Shown: positions 1,993 through 9,757 of the stretch, piece after piece
Numbering within the stretch: position 1 is the first letter of the stretch
Layout: every line of letters starts with the position of its first letter
Assembly: GCA_026706165.1 (NCBI GenBank)
Contig: JAPOZF010000819.1
Location: 1 to 9,757, forward strand
Reading direction: 5' to 3'
Source: Gemmatimonadota bacterium
GTDB taxonomy: Bacteria; Latescibacterota; UBA2968; UBA8231
Length of the DNA stretch: 9,757 nucleotides
The notes under the pieces: model-generated
Seen by the model: the letters and a program-made list of their open reading frames with translations, nothing else
Databases searched by the model: none
Told to the model about the DNA's origin: nothing
Made by a program: the position numbers and the translations under genes

Positions 1993-4179
1993 TCACCCCA
2001 GCCCCAGCCACAGGGCGCCACGGTAAGTGGCCAGGGCGCCGACGTAGGCGAGAAGGGTCATGTAGGCGAAGGTCAGCAGCGGCCACCCCCAGGATCCGGA
2101 CTCCCGCCTGATCACGGCCAATGTCGACATGCACTGGGCGCAGAGCGCGAAGAAGACCATGATCGACAGCGCGGCAGGGATTCCGATCGCCGGGCTTCCG
2201 TCCGGGCGCCTGGCGGTCTTCAGGGCGTGGCTCAGGTCCTGGGAGGTTTCGTCCTGATCTCCTCCGAGGCTGTAGATCGTTCCCAGCACCGATACGATCA
2301 CCTCCCGGGCCGGGAAGGAGGCAAGCGTCGCCATTCCTATGCGCCAGTCCCACCCCAGGGGGGCGACGAGCGGCTCGACGAGCTTGCCCGCCTGTCCGAG
2401 ATAGCTGACTTCCAGCAGGTGGGCGGCCTCGCGGCGTTCGATGTCGGCGAGCTCCCCGGCCGCGGCCTGGGGCTCGGTTTCGTACTGCTGCACCACCTCG
2501 ACGGGCCGCGGGAAGTAGGCCAGCGCCCACATGACGATGGTGGTAGCGAGAATGATGCTGCCGGCGCGGATGACGAAGGCCTTGCTGCTGTGGTATACCC
2601 GCAGGGCGACTGTGCGCGGCGCCGGCAATTTGTACGACGGCATCTCGAGCAGAAAGGGGGGCGGGTCCCCCTTGAGCAGGATCCCCTTGAGCAGCCAGGC
2701 GACCGGGACGGCGACCGCGGCCCCGACGCAGTACATGGCGAAAAGGGTCAGTCCCTGAAGGCCGACCCAGCTGCCGAGGAGGGCGCGGTCGGGGATGAAG
2801 GCGCCGATGAAGAGGACGTACACCGGCAGCCGCGCCGAGCAGCTCATCAGCGGCGCCACCATCATCGTCGTCAGGCGGTCGCGCCGGTCCTCCACGGTGC
2901 GGGTCGCCATCACCCCTGGAACGGCGCAGGCGAAGCTGGAGAGCAGCGGCAGGAACGACTTCCCCGACAACCCGCAGCGGCTCAGCAGCCGGTCCATGAG
3001 CAGGGCGGCGCGCGCCATGTAACCGCAGTCCTCGAGCACGGAGATGAACAGGAAGAGGATGGCTATCTGGGGGAGAAAAATCACAACTCCGCCGACTCCG
3101 GCCACGACCCCGTCGACGATCAGGCTGTGAAAGGGGCCGGGGGCCATAACCGCGGAGACCGCCGCCCCGAGGGCGGAGAACAGCGCGTCGATGGCGTCCA
3201 TGACCGGCACCGCCCAGGCGAAAATCGCCTGGAAAACGAGAGCACTGAGGAGGGCGAAAACCGCAACTCCGGCGACCCGGTGCATCAGGAGGCGGTCGAT
3301 CCTGTCGGAACCGCTCGGGAGCAACGGGTCTCCCTGAACCACCGAGTCCTCGAGCACTCGTTCGATCCAGGCATAGCGGACCTCGGTCTCGAGCGCGGCC
3401 AGCGGGCCCGGGGAGCCCACCTCGCCCCGCATCCGCTCCAGGCGGGTGTTGATGGCGGTTCCCAGAGAGGCGCCGAGGCGTTGTTCGATCACCCCGCCCG
3501 CGTCGACGAGGGCGCGAAACGCCTCGACCCGGGACAGGCTCCTCTCGCCGCCGCCCGCGGCCACCGCCATGCCCTCCAGGGCCTGTGCCTGCTGGCGCAG
3601 GGGCTCGGGAAACTGCGGCAGGTTCGGGTGCGGTTGCTCTCCTGAATGCAGCACCGCCTCGATGGCCTGCTTCAGCGCCCTCAGGCCAAGGCGCCGTCTC
3701 GCGGAGACCGGAACGACCGGCACCCCGAGACGCGCGGACAGGATGCTGGCGTTGACCTCGACCCCGCGGCGCCGGGCGATGTCGGTCATGTTGAGGGCGA
3801 CGACGACCGGGGTGCCGACTTCGAGCAGCTGGGAGACCAGGTAGAGGTTGCGGCGCAGGTTGCTGGCATCGACGATGGCGAGAACGAGGTCGACCTCGGG
3901 AGCCCCGGCCTGCTGGCCGAGAAGGAGGTCGACGGCGATGAGCTGGTCCGGGGCGTGGGCGGCGAGGCTGTAGGTCCCCGGCAGATCGATCAGCTCGGCG
4001 GTCCCGCCCCCGCTCAGGGAGAGGGTGCCGCTCATGTGCTCGACGGTCACCCCGGGGTAGTTGCCGACGTGCTGCGAGAGCCCGGTGAGGGCGTTGAAAA
4101 GAGTGGTCTTGCCGGTGTTGGGGTTGCCGATCAGGGCGATCGACGGCGCCGGCTGGCGCCCGGGTGACGCTGCGGTCAT
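1993..4179 (-). CDS. feoB: Ferrous iron transporter FeoB
   Basis: FeoB is the inner-membrane Fe(II) importer with an N-terminal cytoplasmic G-protein domain; at 728 residues this copy has normal length. G motifs are complete: G1 GNPNTGKT (18-25), G2 threonine 45 in GVTVE, G3 DLPG (65-68), G4 NMTD (130-133) and G5 SA (159-160). A linker/helical region (about 165-295) leads to the membrane domain with both gate repeats. The first holds CGYMARAALLMDRLL, C418 in FACAVPGVM and C447 in SCSARLPVYVL. The second is around GMATLASFPAREVIVS (615-630). FALCAQC (677-683) lies near the C-terminus. The ATG at 4179 is right for the family, which starts a few residues before the first strand; only a weak CAGGGC precedes it. 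It lies 30 bases after feoA and is clearly co-transcribed. No truncation or missing key residue. Confidence 0.97.
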   Translation of the reverse strand: MTAASPGRQPAPSIALIGNPNTGKTTLFNALTGLSQHVGNYPGVTVEHMSGTLSLSGGGTAELIDLPGTYSLAAHAPDQLIAVDLLLGQQAGAPEVDLVLAIVDASNLRRNLYLVSQLLEVGTPVVVALNMTDIARRRGVEVNASILSARLGVPVVPVSARRRLGLRALKQAIEAVLHSGEQPHPNLPQFPEPLRQQAQALEGMAVAAGGGERSLSRVEAFRALVDAGGVIEQRLGASLGTAINTRLERMRGEVGSPGPLAALETEVRYAWIERVLEDSVVQGDPLLPSGSDRIDRLLMHRVAGVAVFALLSALVFQAIFAWAVPVMDAIDALFSALGAAVSAVMAPGPFHSLIVDGVVAGVGGVVIFLPQIAILFLFISVLEDCGYMARAALLMDRLLSRCGLSGKSFLPLLSSFACAVPGVMATRTVEDRRDRLTTMMVAPLMSCSARLPVYVLFIGAFIPDRALLGSWVGLQGLTLFAMYCVGAAVAVPVAWLLKGILLKGDPPPFLLEMPSYKLPAPRTVALRVYHSSKAFVIRAGSIILATTIVMWALAYFPRPVEVVQQYETEPQAAAGELADIERREAAHLLEVSYLGQAGKLVEPLVAPLGWDWRIGMATLASFPAREVIVSVLGTIYSLGGDQDETSQDLSHALKTARRPDGSPAIGIPAALSIMVFFALCAQCMSTLAVIRRESGSWGWPLLTFAYMTLLAYVGALATYRGALWLGLG

Positions 4180-4209
4180 GCCCTGATTCGCCGCGCGGAT
4201 TCCGGTATG

Positions 4210-4515
4210 CTACGTCGCCGCCGGCGGGTGGGAGCCGCCCGGTGAAAACGTCCGGTCGAGAGCCCGCACGCGAATGGTGGAGGCGTCTTCCCGGCGCATG
4301 GCGACCCGCCCCTCTCCTACCTGGAGGACGATCCGGCTGCCGCTTCGGATGACGCGGACGCGCACCCCCGGAACCAGGCCGATTTCGCGAAGCCGCGTCT
4401 CGACGGAGGTATTGCAGGGAGCTTCGACGACCTCGGCATCGACATCGAGGCCGCACTCGGACAGATTGGTAACCGGGGCGTTCTGCCCGTTCCGGCAGGT
4501 TCCGTTGGTGTTCAT
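4210..4515 (-). CDS. feoA: FeoA-domain protein, ferrous iron transport
   Basis: FeoA proteins are small cytoplasmic SH3-like partners that support FeoB. The core runs from about residue 18 (LSECGLDVDAEVVEAP) through RLREIGLVPGVRVRVIRSG, the strand IVLQVGEGRVAMRREDA and IRV at about 83, the usual FeoA order. At 101 residues it is longer than the typical 75-85: there is a 17-residue polar N-terminal extension and a short Pro/Gly-rich C-terminal tail. Cysteines at 7, 21 and 34 are noticeable, but no known cluster motif is formed. The ATG at 4515 is supported by an AGGA ribosome site about six bases upstream. It is the first gene after an AT-rich operator/promoter region and heads feoA-feoB-small membrane protein. 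The family is sure; the N-terminal extension depends on the start choice. Confidence 0.92.
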   Translation of the reverse strand: MNTNGTCRNGQNAPVTNLSECGLDVDAEVVEAPCNTSVETRLREIGLVPGVRVRVIRSGSRIVLQVGEGRVAMRREDASTIRVRALDRTFSPGGSHPPAAT

Positions 4516-4553: not shown

Positions 4554-4603
4554 CATGGCAAACAATCTGTTTGGCATGACAAACAGATGATTGATATGCC
4601 AAA
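4554..4603. promoter_or_regulatory. Interlocked palindromic operator upstream of feoA
   Basis: The same half-site, roughly TGTTTG-N-CATG, occurs several times in alternating orientation. CAAACA (4559-4564) and TGTTTG (4568-4573) flank ATC; with flanks this is an 11-nt-arm palindrome, 4554-4578, with one mismatched pair. TGTTTG (4568-4573) pairs again with CAAACA (4580-4585) around CATG. The outer TTTGGCAT (4570-4577) repeats inverted as ATGCCAAA (4596-4603). The array sits just downstream of and over the predicted -10, where a repressor would block transcription. A metal-responsive regulator of Fur or DtxR/MntR type is likely from the context (feo operon); the sequence does not match a consensus I can name with confidence. 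Confidence 0.65.
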
Positions 4604-4797: not shown

Positions 4798-4812
4798 ACC
4801 CCTCGACGGGGT
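4798..4812 (-). terminator. Short hairpin at the stop of the second permease
   Basis: On the - strand ACCCC-GTCGA-GGGGT begins inside the stop codon of the second permease gene and is followed by a pyrimidine-rich stretch (TCCATTCCTCCCC) without a real T run. It could end or stabilise the importer transcript, but the 5-bp stem and missing U-tract make this tentative. Confidence 0.25.
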
Positions 4813-6092
4813 CAGCGGGTGGGGATCTCCTTGCCCTGGGGGTCCAGGGCACGCTCGGCCACCTGCCGGTCGATCTCGCGTTCGAGGCGCTCGTCGATGT
4901 AGTGCTCGAGGATGTCGGCCGGATCGTGCACGTGGTCGGGCCGTATCCCCAGCTCGTTGAGATAGGTCTCCCACAGCCGGTGGCCGCGCAGCAGGCGCAG
5001 CCCCTCGCTGTGGCCCAGTTCAGTCAGCCGCAGCCCGGTCGCGGTCTGCCGGAGCAGGGCGCGGCGGCGCAGGCGGAGCAGGGCGAGGCGGGCGAGCAGG
5101 GGATTTACCGAGGCCTTCCCGCGCAGCTCCGGGGCCGGCCAGCGCCGGTTCTCGTCGACCTCGGCGGCCCGCACCATGGAGAGCAGCAGGTGGTCCTGGG
5201 CGATTCTGACCGACAGCTGGGTCCGCTGCCAGAGCCGCGCCAGCAGCCCCTGCCGCGGCGCGAGGGTAACCGACAGGGCGAAGATCCCGCCGAGGAGAAC
5301 GACGATCGCCCCGGCGATCGAGCTGTTCCACAGGCCGGCGGCGTAGTAGCCCCCCAGGGCGGCGGCGACCCCGAACAGGACCGCAGCGGTCAGCACCATC
5401 GGCAGGCGGTCGCTCCACAGACAGGCCGCGGCCCCGGGAACGATAAGCAGGGCGACCACGAGAATGGCCCCTACCGACTCGAAGCTCGCCACGGTGGTCA
5501 CCGATACCGCTCCCATCAGCAGGTAATGGACGACGGTGGCGTTGATGCCGACGGACAGCGCCATGGCCGGGTCGAACGAGGCGATCACCAGCTCCTTGTA
5601 GAGCAACCCGACGAACAGCAGGTTGAGGAGGAGGACCGGGCCGAGGATCCACAGGGGCCGCGGACCGAGGTCGGTATCCCCCCAGACCAGGACGTCCCAC
5701 GGGGTGTAGGCGATTTCGCCGTAGAGGACGCACTCTTGGTCGAGGTCGACCTGCCCGGCGTAAGCGGAAATCAACACCACCCCGAAGGCGAACAGGGAGG
5801 TGAAGACGATGCCGATCGAGGCGTCTTCGGGGACCTGCCAGCGGCGGTGGAAGGCTTCGACGAGAAGAGCGGTGACCAGCCCGAAGGCGGCGGCGCCGGC
5901 AAACATCGGAAGAATGGCCCGGCTCTCGGAGAAGAGGAAGGCGATGGCGATTCCGGGAAGCACCGCGTGGCTGAGGGCGTCGCCGAGCAGGGACATCCTG
6001 CGCAGCACGAGGAAGGTGCCGAGAAGGGCGCAGGAAGCCGCGGCGAGCGCCGCGGTCAGAAGAATGGACCACTCCCCCTGGACCGCGGTCAC
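4812..6092 (-). CDS. Metal ABC transporter permease 2 with C-terminal DtxR/MntR-like tail
   Basis: A 426-residue protein. Residues about 1-285 are an ABC-3-type (ZnuB/TroCD/MntB) inner-membrane permease with repeated hydrophobic segments and hallmarks LGTFLVLRRMSLLGDALSHAVLPG, SFDPAMALSVGI and SVGAILVVALLIVPGAAA. Ordinary permeases end near here. Residues about 297-426 resemble DtxR/MntR regulators: LRLTELG, then GHRLWETYLNELG (370-382), DILEHYIDERLE and a closing LDPQGKEIP like the DPHG-x-IP ending of the family. By alignment to MntR, H371, D393, E396 and H397 fall on the H77/E99/E102/H103 metal ligands and D300 on D8. The recognition-helix part (about 318-350) is Leu/Arg-rich and poorly conserved. 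The GTG at 6092 is chosen because its GTGA overlaps the preceding stop and the protein then starts at the family N-terminus; the frame runs open upstream to 6302 only as a shadow. Last gene of the importer operon. Confidence 0.9.
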   Translation of the reverse strand: MTAVQGEWSILLTAALAAASCALLGTFLVLRRMSLLGDALSHAVLPGIAIAFLFSESRAILPMFAGAAAFGLVTALLVEAFHRRWQVPEDASIGIVFTSLFAFGVVLISAYAGQVDLDQECVLYGEIAYTPWDVLVWGDTDLGPRPLWILGPVLLLNLLFVGLLYKELVIASFDPAMALSVGINATVVHYLLMGAVSVTTVASFESVGAILVVALLIVPGAAACLWSDRLPMVLTAAVLFGVAAALGGYYAAGLWNSSIAGAIVVLLGGIFALSVTLAPRQGLLARLWQRTQLSVRIAQDHLLLSMVRAAEVDENRRWPAPELRGKASVNPLLARLALLRLRRRALLRQTATGLRLTELGHSEGLRLLRGHRLWETYLNELGIRPDHVHDPADILEHYIDERLEREIDRQVAERALDPQGKEIPTR

Positions 6093-7423
6093 GAGGCCGC
6101 CCTGTCTTCGCCGCCGGCTCCGTAGCGGCTGCCGGTCTGGTGGATGTTGATCACCCTGGCCGGGTCGAGCCCGTGTTCGCGCTCGAGGATTTCCTCGAGG
6201 CGGGCGATGATTTCGGGCGTCAGCAGGTGCTCGACCTCGTCGGCCGCCCGGTCGACGTGGTCGGGGGCGAGGATGTCGCGGTAGACGAGGAAGTGTTCCC
6301 ACAGGCGGTGCGACTTGACGACGAAGGTCGCCTCGGACATCCCCGCCACTGTCAGCTCGATGCCGCCGTTCCCGGCCCCGGCGAGGCCGGCGCGCCCCAG
6401 CCCCTTCGCCTCGGCTCGTACGCGGTCCGTATCCCAGCCCAGCTCGGCGGCGATCTCGCCGACGGAAAACCGCTGGCGGCCGGGATGCGCCTCGAGCAGC
6501 TCGATCACTGCCCGCAGGAAATGGTGGCGCCGCTCGCGGCGCTCGTTGGCGCGCCGCCGGCGCAGCCGCGCCAGGATTCCGCGCCGGGGGCCGAAGACTG
6601 CCGACAACAGGAAGAACCCGGTCGCCACCATGACCATCACCGGCCCGGTCGGCAGGCGCGGGGCCATGGCGCTCAGGCAGGTACCGGCGATACCGGAAAG
6701 ACCTCCGAAGAGGGCGGCGGTCAGCACCATCCGGTGCAGGCGCTCGGTCCAGAAGCGGGCGGCCACTGCCGGGGTGATCAGCATGGCGGCGATCAGCACC
6801 ACTCCGACCGCCTGCAGTCCGACCATGACCGTCATCACGATCAGGCCCATCAGGGCGAGGTCGACGGCGCGCACCGGAAAACCGAGGGACTGCAGGAAGC
6901 CCGGGTCGAAGATCAGGGCCTTGAACTCCTTGTAGAGCAACAGCAGGACGGCGATGATGGCGAGGCTCATCGCGGCCATGACGAGGATGTCCTCCCTGAC
7001 GATGGCCGCGGCCTGGCCGAACAGGAACTTGTCGAGGCCGCTCTGGTTGCCGACGCGGCTGCGCTGGATGTGGGTGAGCAGGACGATGCCGCCCCCGAAA
7101 AAGACCGAGAGCACGATGCCGATGGCGGAGTCGGCCTTGAGGCGCGTGTGGTGGACGACGAAATGGATGACCAGCATGCCGGCCACCCCGGTGGCGGTGG
7201 CCCCGGCGATCAGCACCGGCAGCGACTTGCTGCCTGTCAACATGAAGGCGAGGGCGACGCCGGGAAGAGCGGCGTGCGCCAGGGCGTCACCCATCAGGCT
7301 TCGGCGCCGGAGGACGGCGAAGGTCCCCAGCATGCCGCCGGTGGCGCCGATGAGAAGAGAGCCGGCGAGGACGAAGCGCACGTTGGCGTCGCCGAGCGCA
7401 AGGACTTCCCAGGGTGCCGTCAT
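6089..7423 (-). CDS. Metal ABC transporter permease 1 fused to DtxR/MntR-like regulator domain
   Basis: A 444-residue fusion. Residues about 1-283 form an ABC-3-family Mn/Fe/Zn permease, with LGTFAVLRRRSLMGDALAHAALPG near the N-terminus, IFDPGFLQSLGF for ATPase contact and VGVVLIAAMLITPAVAARFW. After a basic linker (RLRRRRANERRERR, 287-299), residues about 300-368 look like a full winged helix: helix HFLRAVIELLEAHPG, SVGEIAAELGWDTDRVRAEAKGL as helix-turn-helix, then ELTVAG. Residues 369-430 resemble the DtxR/MntR dimerisation domain (SHRLWEHFL, ADEVEHLLTPEI). H372, D395, E398 and H399 align with MntR ligands H77, E99, E102 and H103; the D8 and E11 ligands seem changed. The arrangement is that of chlamydial YtgC-YtgR, whose tail is released as an iron-dependent repressor. 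The ATG lies 12 bases after the ATPase stop codon, in the same frame, so no earlier start is possible; GGGAGG directly abuts it. Confidence 0.93.
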   Translation of the reverse strand: MTAPWEVLALGDANVRFVLAGSLLIGATGGMLGTFAVLRRRSLMGDALAHAALPGVALAFMLTGSKSLPVLIAGATATGVAGMLVIHFVVHHTRLKADSAIGIVLSVFFGGGIVLLTHIQRSRVGNQSGLDKFLFGQAAAIVREDILVMAAMSLAIIAVLLLLYKEFKALIFDPGFLQSLGFPVRAVDLALMGLIVMTVMVGLQAVGVVLIAAMLITPAVAARFWTERLHRMVLTAALFGGLSGIAGTCLSAMAPRLPTGPVMVMVATGFFLLSAVFGPRRGILARLRRRRANERRERRHHFLRAVIELLEAHPGRQRFSVGEIAAELGWDTDRVRAEAKGLGRAGLAGAGNGGIELTVAGMSEATFVVKSHRLWEHFLVYRDILAPDHVDRAADEVEHLLTPEIIARLEEILEREHGLDPARVINIHQTGSRYGAGGEDRAAS

Positions 7424-7432
7424 CCTCCCGGA

Positions 7433-8238
<806 letters not shown>

Positions 8239-8242
<4 letters not shown>

Positions 8243-9186
8243 TCAAGGGCCTCGACGATGGTGTCGACGTTGGACCGCACCATGCCGGCGTAGGTGTCGG
8301 CGCCGCTGCCGGACCCCCCCATGGCGTCGGAGTAGAGGGTGCCGCCGATGACGACCTCGTGGCCGCGGGCGAGACAGCCCTCGCGCACGGCGTTGATCGA
8401 ACGCTCGGGCACGCTGCTTTCGACGAAGATCGCCGGCACGCGGCGGGCGACGATGAGGTCGACGAGGTGGCGCACGTCGGCGACTCCGTACTCGGCCACG
8501 GTCGAGATCCCCTGCAGCCCGACGACGTCGATTCCGTAGGCGCGGCCGAAATAGCCGAAGGCATCGTGGGCGGTGACCAGCACCCGCCGTTCCTCCGGGA
8601 TCTGCCCCAGGCGCTCGCGCACCCAGGCATCGAGCCCGGCGAGCTCGGAGCCGTACCTCGCCCCGTTGGCCTCGAACAGGGAGGCCCCCTCGGGGTCCGC
8701 CTTCGACAGGGCGGCGACGACGACGCCGATCGTCGACCGCCACATGTCGACGTCGAACCAGATGTGGGGGTCGTAGTTGCCGTCGAACCCGGCGGGCTTG
8801 CGCAGCTGCTCCTCGGGAACCGCGCTCGAGACGGCGACCACCGTCACGGTGCGGGCCATCTTGCGGAAGATCTCGTCGAGCTTGCCCTCGAGGAAGAGGC
8901 CGTTGTAGAAGATGACGCGCGCCGCGGTCAGGTGTTCGAGGTCTCCCCGGGTCGCCTTGTAGTAGTGGGGATCGACGCCGGGTCCCATCAGGCCGGTCAC
9001 CTCGACCCGCGAGCCGCCGACCTCGGCGACCAGATCGGCGACCATACCGGTGGTCGCCACCACCTTGAGGCGGTCAGGGGGGGACTGGCCGGGTTCGACC
9101 CGAGGATCGCCGCATCCGGCCATGCAGGCCGCGGCGATGGCGGCAGCGGCGATTGCCGCGATTGTTCCAGAAGGCTGTGTACCCAT
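8239..9186 (-). CDS. Metal-binding lipoprotein of ABC importer (TroA/ZnuA/MntC family)
   Basis: The 315-residue substrate-binding protein captures metal outside the inner membrane and delivers it to the permeases. A signal segment of alanine/isoleucine ends in a lipobox MAGC with C25 as lipidated cysteine. Predicted metal ligands are H74 (VDPHYYKATRGD), H141 (YDPHIWFDV), H207 (TAHDAFGYFGRAYG) and D287 (GTLYSDAMG), the His-His-His-Asp set of TroA-type proteins. PsaA/MntC-type Mn proteins usually have Glu third. The ATG at 9186 is preferred: it has GGAAAG upstream, and the only earlier start, a GTG at 9216, coincides with the predicted transcription start. The GTG start would add ten residues including two lysines and give a more normal charged n-region, so it stays an alternative. 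It is the first gene of a four-gene importer operon. Confidence 0.93.
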
Positions 9187-9222
9187 TTTCTTTCCAGTGG
9201 TGGGGGATGAAAGCACGGCGAC

Positions 9223-9242
9223 AATTTAGTCTTGGCTAAATT
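9223..9242. promoter_or_regulatory. 20-bp palindromic operator (DtxR/MntR-like) of the importer operon
   Basis: AATTTAGTCTTGGCTAAATT is a near-perfect dyad: seven-base arms AATTTAG/CTAAATT around a six-base centre that itself keeps a C-G pair. It covers the -10 and spacer of the importer promoter. TTAG...CTAA arms of about this size and spacing resemble operators of DtxR-family metalloregulators (DtxR, ScaR/SloR, TroR). This is a likeness, not a consensus match. The natural candidate binder is the DtxR-like tail encoded in the same operon. Confidence 0.72.
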
Positions 9243-9251
9243 TAAAGTCAA
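9223..9251 (-). promoter_or_regulatory. Sigma70-type promoter of the metal importer operon
   Basis: On the - strand TTGACT (9246-9251, five of six to the -35 consensus) is separated by exactly 17 bases from TAAATT (9223-9228, four of six to the -10). Transcription would start close to 9216, leaving a leader of about 30 bases before the ATG at 9186. The palindrome overlaps the -10, a classical repressor arrangement. Between this promoter and the gene at 9425 I found no convincing + strand promoter. Confidence 0.72.
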
Positions 9252-9424
9252 CGACCAGCTAGTTGCCCGATCTTCGAGGGGATCGCACTGTTCGGTGGCC
9301 AAGCCGGGTTCCGGGGAAAGCGCCCAGGCCCTCCCGGTGCCGGGTCTCCTCCCCGCGCCTGTCTCGGGAGGGGTGGTACCGCAGGAGAAGCCGGCTGCAC
9401 AGACCGTTGACCGGAGAAAAGAGG

Positions 9425-9757
9425 ATGAACCGACTGCATGCGACCGCCGCGGTGCTGGCGGCGGCCCTGTCGCCCGCCGGGGCGCAGGATTTCTACGCGC
9501 ACTGGGGGGATGGACGCGCCGAGCTCTCGGGCTACCGCATCGAGCAGCCCCGCTACGGAGAGTCGAGAGAGGCGTACGGTGTCATGATCTTCGTCACCGA
9601 AGACCTGAACGCCGGCACCGGTATCAAGGTGGAGTCGCCGACGCCGGCGGCCGACCGCGTCTACGTCCTCAAGCTCAACAACGTGCTGAAGTTCACGACC
9701 GGTATCTACGACTACTCGGTGATGACGTCGGTGTTCAGCGCCGTGGAGCCGCGCACC
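9425..9757 (+). CDS. Secreted protein of unknown function, 5' part (cut by window end)
   Basis: The first 111 codons of an open frame running off the right edge. The ATG is preceded by GGAG eight bases upstream (GGAGAAAAGAGG-ATG). The N-terminus looks like a signal peptide: R3, an alanine/leucine core (ATAAVLAAALSP) and a cleavage-like AGA-QD at about 20/21. The mature part has WGDGRAELSGYRI, PRYGESREAYGVMIFVTED, VLKLNNVLKFTTGIYDYSV and MTSVF. This pattern recalls a family of exported proteins often labelled 'septum formation inhibitor Maf' in databases, a name that does not fit since no Maf nucleotide-pyrophosphatase motif is present. The recollection is from memory and unverified; function unknown. 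It is divergent from the importer operon with a 238-base intergenic region. Confidence 0.75.
   Translation, partial: MNRLHATAAVLAAALSPAGAQDFYAHWGDGRAELSGYRIEQPRYGESREAYGVMIFVTEDLNAGTGIKVESPTPAADRVYVLKLNNVLKFTTGIYDYSVMTSVFSAVEPRT

Follow-up and report, generated by a model that had tools for sequence, protein, structure and literature searches.

The 9,757-nt window analysed here (the whole stretch of DNA, positions 1-9,757 of contig JAPOZF010000819.1) appears to encode a TroABCD/ZnuABC-type importer of divalent metal in which both permeases, C and D, carry a DtxR/MntR-like module, predicted to be cytosolic, at the end of a long helix (residues 283-312). In the family of these tails the metal-ligand positions are almost invariant and the DNA recognition helix is fast-changing, and a conserved palindrome on the operon promoter accompanies a stand-alone DtxR gene in most relatives. 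We propose that the pair of tails may sense metal and gate the importer, and that the operon may be repressed separately by a stand-alone DtxR. Judged from sequence and predicted structure, we consider this reading evenly poised between right and wrong.

DtxR-like tails on both permeases

The first-pass annotation had described positions 6089..7423 as a permease fused to a DtxR/MntR-like domain, and the open reading frame, its coordinates and the linker are as it gave them. The permease part stops near residue 283, and residues 284-444 form a DtxR/MntR-like winged helix followed by a metal-binding and dimerization domain. Using Pfam, we matched Fe_dep_repr_C (PF02742) to about residues 357-414 with 41.2 bits (cut-off 27). 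A phmmer search against the PDB aligned the tail to DtxR residues 10-120 (best E 1.3e-4), placing H301, H372, E376, D391, D395, E398 and H399 on DtxR residues 10, 79, 83, 98, 102, 105 and 106, which we take to be the metal-ligand positions of DtxR. This agrees with the earlier assignment of H372, D395, E398 and H399 to such positions and adds H301 and E376; H301 lies outside the core, in helix 1. Matches of the C-terminal end of the tail to TAL-effector repeats, seen in the first PDB search, were gone with a shorter query and were taken as artefacts.

The annotation had suggested comparing a predicted structure of the tail with DtxR and MntR, and this comparison bears out the resemblance. In the AlphaFold2 model of permease C, helices 321-328 and 332-344 and strands 348-351 and 354-357 make up the winged helix, and a long helix (359-380) follows. 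Foldseek returned 17 ABC-permease chains for this model, with PsaBC (7kyp) as top match, and then IdeR, SloR, DtxR and MntR (E 0.01-0.06). The linker is predicted to be a single unbroken helix (283-312), within which N293 is invariant.

A tail on permease D was overlooked in the annotation, and this second tail alters the likely architecture. It is the clearer of the two, with PF02742 at residues 357-425 (64.2 bits versus 41.2) and a best E of 3.6e-13 against the PDB. Its best DtxR-family match in Foldseek was DR2539 of Deinococcus, a Mn-dependent repressor (8pw0; E 7.6e-5, template modelling score 0.78 by target length, root-mean-square deviation 2.6). In the AlphaFold2 model of permease D, helix 283-312 is continuous as in C and leads into a full DtxR-like module. 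The importer thus has a repressor-like tail on each permease half.

The permeases and their tails are encoded as follows.

6089..7423, minus strand: permease C, ABC-3 family (227 bits), 444 amino acids, with a C-terminal DtxR-like tail
6353..6487, minus strand: eroded winged helix-turn-helix of the C tail, residues 313-357 (AlphaFold2 secondary structure, low conservation, no PF01325 up to E 1)
6176..6352, minus strand: metal-binding and dimerization core of the C tail, residues 358-416, with H372, E376, D391, D395, E398 and H399 (Pfam, conservation, phmmer)
4812..6092, minus strand: permease D, ABC-3 family, 426 amino acids, with the second DtxR-like tail; it has a GTG start and overlaps the stop of permease C
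5025..5156, minus strand: eroded winged helix of the D tail, residues 313-356 (AlphaFold2 secondary structure, low conservation, PF01325 in none of 40 D sequences)
4857..5024, minus strand: metal-binding and dimerization core of the D tail, residues 357-412, with H371, E375, H389, D393, E396 and H397, together with H301 (Pfam, PDB alignment, conservation)

Like DtxR, IdeR, MntR and SloR, the tails combine a winged helix with a metal-binding and dimerization core, and the C tail has H, H, E, D, D, E and H at the seven positions. They differ in being joined to a permease by one helix, in that Pfam found no FeoA or SH3 domain in either window tail, and in that PF01325, the model of the DtxR DNA-binding domain, was unmatched up to E 1 in both; the winged-helix fold is predicted nonetheless.

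Metal core, recognition helix and operator

To assess conservation we used alignments of 121 sequences for each permease, the window among them. In C, H301 was present in 121/121 sequences, H372 and E376 in 120/121, D395 in 119/120, and E398 and H399 in 120/120. The corresponding counts in D were 121/121 for H301, 119/119 for H371 and E375, 118/119 for H389, 107/119 for D393 and 118/118 for E396 and H397, and R372 and W374 of the D tail were found in 119/119. The string HRLWE was dropped as a signature specific to fused tails, since its W is also found in 22 of 47 stand-alone DtxRs, in a comparison that left out loci L081-L120 (mostly second copies) and tail matches below 20 bits.

Mean pairwise identity was compared only among genomes holding every class compared. 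In 15 near genomes, identities in the recognition helix and metal core were 0.49 and 0.77 for C tails and 0.34 and 0.56 for D tails, whereas stand-alone DtxRs scored 0.77 and 0.75; the recognition-to-core ratios are 0.64, 0.60 and 1.02, respectively. With all 19 genomes the ratios were 0.60 (C), 0.48 (D) and 0.91 (stand-alone), and with each class aligned alone, in 13 genomes, they were 0.69, 0.63 and 1.04. Among 24 genomes with a C tail only, helix and core identities were 0.36 and 0.69 (ratio 0.52) versus 0.66 and 0.65 for the stand-alones (1.02). Within the lineage of the window, homolog P0006 and the window permease C are 0.96 identical in the membrane part, 0.92 in the core and 0.67 in the helix-turn-helix. 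Up to E 0.1, PF01325 was matched by none of 40 D sequences and at most one of 40 C sequences; the three operon-linked stand-alone DtxRs that we scanned gave 57.8, 53.8 and 65.7 bits, and one small feo-linked DtxR paralogue (in L009) gave 26.2 bits (cut-off 26).

The order binding protein-ATPase-C-D, with an ABC-3 permease carrying a C-terminal DtxR domain, is the YtgCR-type layout, so that the ytgABCD-like context of the annotation stands. Its DtxR-like palindrome on the operon promoter is likewise present, perfect and conserved. Besides the permeases, this part of the window contains the following.

9223..9242, no strand assigned: perfect 7-6-7 palindrome AATTTAG-N6-CTAAATT, a conserved putative operon operator, overlapping the promoter-like -10
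8239..9216, minus strand: ZnuA/TroA-type metal-binding (lipo)protein (ZnuA PF01297, 254.5 bits); translation may in fact begin at the ATG at 9186
7433..8242, minus strand: ATPase subunit of the ABC metal importer, 269 amino acids, with ATPase/P-loop families as the only Pfam matches
9424-9757, plus strand: beginning of a divergently oriented gene whose product is a putative exported protein; NCBIfam gave nothing for it up to E 0.1

Promoter-like elements on the minus strand, identified by consensus match only, lie at 9223-9228 (-10) and 9246-9251 (-35). The window contains the core TTTAG-N6-CTAAA a single time, and none of 200 shuffles has it. In all 14 close relatives with a binding-protein gene (L001-L006, L008-L014 and L017), the core lies close to where that gene starts; in L009, L010, L013 and L017 the site sits 14 bases within the frame as called, the start of which is probably placed too far upstream. 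We then surveyed promoters from 300 bases upstream to 150 bases inside the binding-protein gene at 70 of 81 loci (window included), the others having no binding-protein gene or too little upstream sequence. The core was present in 16 of the 20 twin-tail operons, counting the window, in 9 of 40 with a tail on C only and in none of 10 without a tail. Elsewhere at the surveyed loci the core matched exactly 18 times in 1,117,922 bases, a background of about 0.007 expected per promoter window. Across eight genomes the motif was not above a reversed-pattern control (16 versus 49 sites, forward counts), and its evidential weight therefore lies in promoter placement, not in frequency. G062 alone had one site versus none for the reversed pattern. 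In two of the eight, G060 and G062, the sole exact site and permease C are on different contigs; in G060 the permease C contig starts too close to the gene to include the promoter, and in G062 the operon promoter is seemingly on the contig, apparently without an exact site.

At 16 of 20 twin-tail loci a stand-alone DtxR gene is the immediate upstream neighbour, diverges at no more than 0.8 kb or follows within 1.5 kb downstream; such a gene is also adjacent at 22 of 40 C-tail-only loci. It is about 0.8 kb upstream in L015 and about 0.3 kb upstream in L022, and dtxR is the first gene in six of the nine C-only operons carrying the site. L023 and the window have none nearby, the window none within its 9.8 kb, and the L023 genome has one elsewhere. 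On the side occupied in the window by 9424-9757, L001-L006 and L008 have the stand-alone DtxR gene. Counted as open frames of about 120-320 amino acids over the Pfam cut-off, with the DNA-binding domain checked in four proteins, stand-alone-size DtxR frames were present in 59 of the 63 fused-tail genomes: 27 of the 28 fused-importer genomes in the phylum group of L001 (missing in G050) and 32 of 35 others (missing in G080, G087 and G100). The absences are weak evidence because most of these genomes are metagenome-assembled genomes (MAGs). A D tail was visible in 27 of the 28 L001-group genomes, the D gene of G051 being cut. On these sequence data, the simplest reading is that the operon repressor is a stand-alone DtxR, presumably encoded elsewhere in the genome of the window.

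Distribution, origin and a parallel at feo genes

Homolog searches scored 8,000 candidates for each permease; 7,815 of them for C and 6,866 for D were within E 1e-3. Among the 120 listed for each, precomputed PF02742 matches were present in 119 C and 117 D homologs (236/240 together). Where these tailed sequences have source names, only a metal transport permease is mentioned. The nearest genomes that we found share 70-71% identity in permease C, and viral contigs, when scanned, yielded no relative. Among the best 80 loci, scanned with one genome per species, were Latescibacterota, Gemmatimonadetes-labelled MAGs, Planctomycetota, KSB1, Bacteroidota, Bacillota and others. The 70 loci with a usable promoter comprised 20 with both tails, 40 with a C tail and no D tail seen, 10 with no recognisable tail and none with a D tail only; among the 40, no D gene was found in 4, and 6 have weak Bacillota-type tails. 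Because loci were ranked by similarity to the tailed protein, these proportions are not frequencies in nature. The twin-tail group consists of Latescibacterota, Gemmatimonadetes-labelled MAGs and single KSB1, Omnitrophota, Planctomycetota, Actinomycetota-labelled and Uabimicrobium loci.

To ask how the tails are related we built a tree of 110 domains, drawn from 150 rows after dropping 15 near-duplicate loci and the Bacillota-type C rows of L026, L054, L056, L058, L064 and L071. In this tree a single branch separates the C and D tails from the stand-alones, with support 100/93, or 99/92 without linker columns (107 rows, L005 dropped too). D tails grouped with 100/94 and C tails more weakly with 90/82. 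Profile comparison with hhalign gave a homology probability of 99.8-99.9% between tails and stand-alones. The branch support and the profile homology together favour descent from one old fusion, not several separate captures, at the loci sampled.

Bacillota MntC/MntD-type loci (Brevibacillus, Alkalihalobacillus and others) share with the window an ABC metal operon and a C-terminal winged-helix extension on permease C, and differ in that D is untailed and the ligands are lost in several. Such MntC-like permeases with a ligand-free tail are found in L056 (9004-10335), L071 (8998-10365) and L058 (8983-10326); we know of no explanation for them, as far as a limited literature search goes. The one genome checked here, that of L058, has a separate MntR-size frame elsewhere. 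Other Bacillota loci have no recognisable tail. In L031 (3381-5612), from a Bacteroidetes MAG, ATPase, permease C and tail lie in one 743-amino-acid open frame, which may be a fusion or simply a frame that stays open across the junction.

DtxR cores also occur beside the Feo importer. At L121-L125, all in the same genome group, a protein of 341-368 amino acids encoded next to FeoB genes has a DtxR core followed by FeoA-type domains and, by eye, an apparent N-terminal membrane helix.

L121 4287-5324: DtxR-FeoA protein
L122 3163-4203: DtxR-FeoA protein
L123 5119-6144: DtxR-FeoA protein
L124 2170-3276: DtxR-FeoA protein
L125 4049-5074: DtxR-FeoA protein

In Pfam scans of two of the five, PF02742 and FeoA were above cut-offs and PF01325 was absent or below cut-off. 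These proteins form a separate tree branch (100/100), and the FeoB genes are split at four of the five loci. A separate stand-alone DtxR lies next to the DtxR-FeoA protein at four of the five; the L122 genome has one on another contig. As in the window, an apparently membrane-bound DtxR metal core is encoded with a metal importer; here, by contrast, the protein has its own membrane helix and FeoA domains and is linked to FeoB, not to an ABC permease. Membrane-tied DtxR cores thus seem to occur beside soluble DtxRs with two unrelated importers, and the DtxR-FeoA protein may sense metal for the Feo importer.

The window itself has feo genes downstream of the importer operon.

4210-4515, minus strand: FeoA
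1993-4179, minus strand: FeoB

The feoA promoter contains a perfect 9-6-9 palindrome at 4565-4588, ATCTGTTTG-GCATGA-CAAACAGAT, with the same spacer length as the importer operator and a different half-site; in the fetched relatives we did not find it, except for one shorter match in L022. In Latescibacterota-type relatives (L009 at 3949-4515, L010, L012, L013, L014 and L017) a second small DtxR-like paralogue of 172-303 amino acids lies directly 5' of feoA/feoB and is distinct from the DtxR beside the ABC operon.

Proposed role of the tails

We propose that the C and D permeases would pair around a pseudo-twofold axis, which makes it feasible for their tails to pair into a DtxR-like heterodimer beneath the transporter. 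Rising cytosolic metal (Mn, Fe or Zn) would bind the tails, close the heterodimer and slow or stop transport, that is, cause trans-inhibition. Transcription of the operon would be repressed at TTTAG-N6-CTAAA by a stand-alone repressor of the DtxR family, encoded adjacent to the operon in most relatives. In MetNI and ModBC a regulatory domain is carried on the ATPase subunit. The window importer would resemble these systems, by analogy, in having added cytosolic domains that sense the imported substrate; it differs in the fold and in that the domains sit on the permeases, not on the 269-amino-acid ATPase. Trans-inhibition by added regulatory domains is described as established for the MetNI and ModABC importers in a 2023 review (PMC10710835). 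The term DtxR is absent from that review, although its tables cover numerous examples of regulated transporters. A search of open-access literature, by titles and abstract openings, yielded no description of twin tails or of a gating role for permease DtxR tails.

Several observations weigh against this proposal. Transport control by DtxR-like tails has no experimental link for any such tail, and the only studied fusion, YtgCR, is reported as a cleaved DNA-binding repressor. Many lineages have a tail on C only, so that a C-D tail heterodimer cannot be general. The genome pairs behind the identity ratios are not independent, and in P0123, the closest D homolog, identity in the helix-turn-helix (0.85) is about that of the core (0.88), without the contrast seen elsewhere. 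Residues 387-398 of the permease C model, D395 and E398 among them, have a predicted local distance difference test score below 50. Finally, helix 3 of the C tail, the recognition helix, is still basic and partly kept (R334 in 81/121, R337 in 94/121, R344 in 95/121), and 40 C sequences gave matches to other winged-helix DNA-binding models (Rrf2 12, HVO_A0261_N 7, MarR_2 7, HTH_IclR 6, HTH_Crp_2 5), most of them weak (best E 3.2e-6). Together, the basic helix and these matches make nucleic-acid binding by the C tail possible.

Fusion of a permease to a DtxR domain is already known from Chlamydia trachomatis, whose YtgCR likewise has a C-terminal DtxR-like domain on permease C within a ytgABCD operon. 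To our knowledge Chlamydia YtgD has no tail, and the window importer differs in being tailed on permease D as well (PF02742, 64.2 bits). It differs further in the stand-alone DtxR retained by its relatives and in the eroded recognition helix of its tails. According to three reports (PMC5599777, PMC6504234, PMC7755916) the YtgR domain is cleaved to a DNA-binding, iron-dependent repressor, the fragment measures 28-30 kDa, and YtgR is the sole identified iron-dependent regulator in Chlamydia; a review says that the DtxR metal-coordinating residues are conserved in YtgR. By this precedent, one or both window tails, tethered or cleaved, would dimerize with metal, bind the palindrome and repress their own operon. 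Gene order and fusion as in Chlamydia, the perfect palindrome on the window promoter, the lack of a stand-alone DtxR gene within the 9.8 kb and the basic helix 3 of the C tail all fit. However, in close relatives the palindrome accompanies an adjacent stand-alone DtxR, with an intact DNA-binding domain in the three scanned, and a stand-alone-size frame is present in nearly all fused-tail genomes. The recognition helix is eroded in the tails and intact in the stand-alones, the window C tail has A at 337 and G at 341 where R is the commonest residue, and neither window tail matches PF01325. A cut at the window linker would be expected to release 16-18 kDa, not the 28-30 kDa of the chlamydial fragment. 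We consider self-repression unlikely. Of the first-pass interpretation, the fused domain, the ligand positions, the operon and the palindrome stand, and the tail as regulator of that palindrome in an autoregulatory loop is not supported; nor is its cleavage near the arginine-rich linker favoured by the models, which predict a continuous helix 283-312 in both permeases and no obvious flexible site. Cleavage, and DNA binding by the tail, keep some probability all the same.

Conserved ligands without a conserved recognition helix would fit any metal-binding role, and tails on both permeases would suit an acceptor or buffer that takes the imported ion at the cytosolic mouth and passes it on, with neither gating nor DNA binding. 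A simple relay would not need the dimerization core and winged-helix fold that are retained, and we regard this as improbable. The tails could also pair with stand-alone DtxR subunits, as decoys or as flux signals, so that transporter activity tunes repression. Their homology to the stand-alones in the dimerization core, the side-by-side encoding at most twin-tail loci (16 of 20) and just over half of the C-tail-only loci (22 of 40), and the need of C-only lineages for another partner if the tail dimerizes are consistent with such cross-talk. It is set back by the tails being a clade of their own with class-specific core residues, mixed pairing having no support, and we find it somewhat less probable still. 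The loss of ligands in the L056, L071 and L058 tails, together with Bacillota that have no recognisable tail, recalls a fused repressor whose function decayed and which is passively carried. For the family of the window this is contradicted by ligand positions that are near-invariant in 121 + 121 sequences, which a vestige would not keep, and we think it very improbable.

Extending the proposal of a metal-sensing gate, we suggest tentatively, at slightly less than even confidence, that the DtxR/MntR fold was co-opted once, anciently, as a non-DNA-binding metal gate of importers. In this scheme the twin tails would be a heterodimeric sensor, a soluble paralogue would repress, the DtxR-FeoA proteins would act likewise for FeoB, and YtgR would be derived. 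If the gate reading is true, chlamydial YtgR would be a gate domain that serves as repressor after the soluble repressor was lost, which fits its reported status as the sole identified iron regulator in Chlamydia. Metal importers must stop fast when the cell is full, and transcriptional repressors are slow. If the tails gate, one sensor fold would serve both a fast arm at the transporter and a slow arm in gene repression. Such two-arm control would then extend over many phyla and over hundreds of sequences at least, 236 of 240 listed homologs having the tail, and the chlamydial permease-repressor fusion would be one branch of a wider family.

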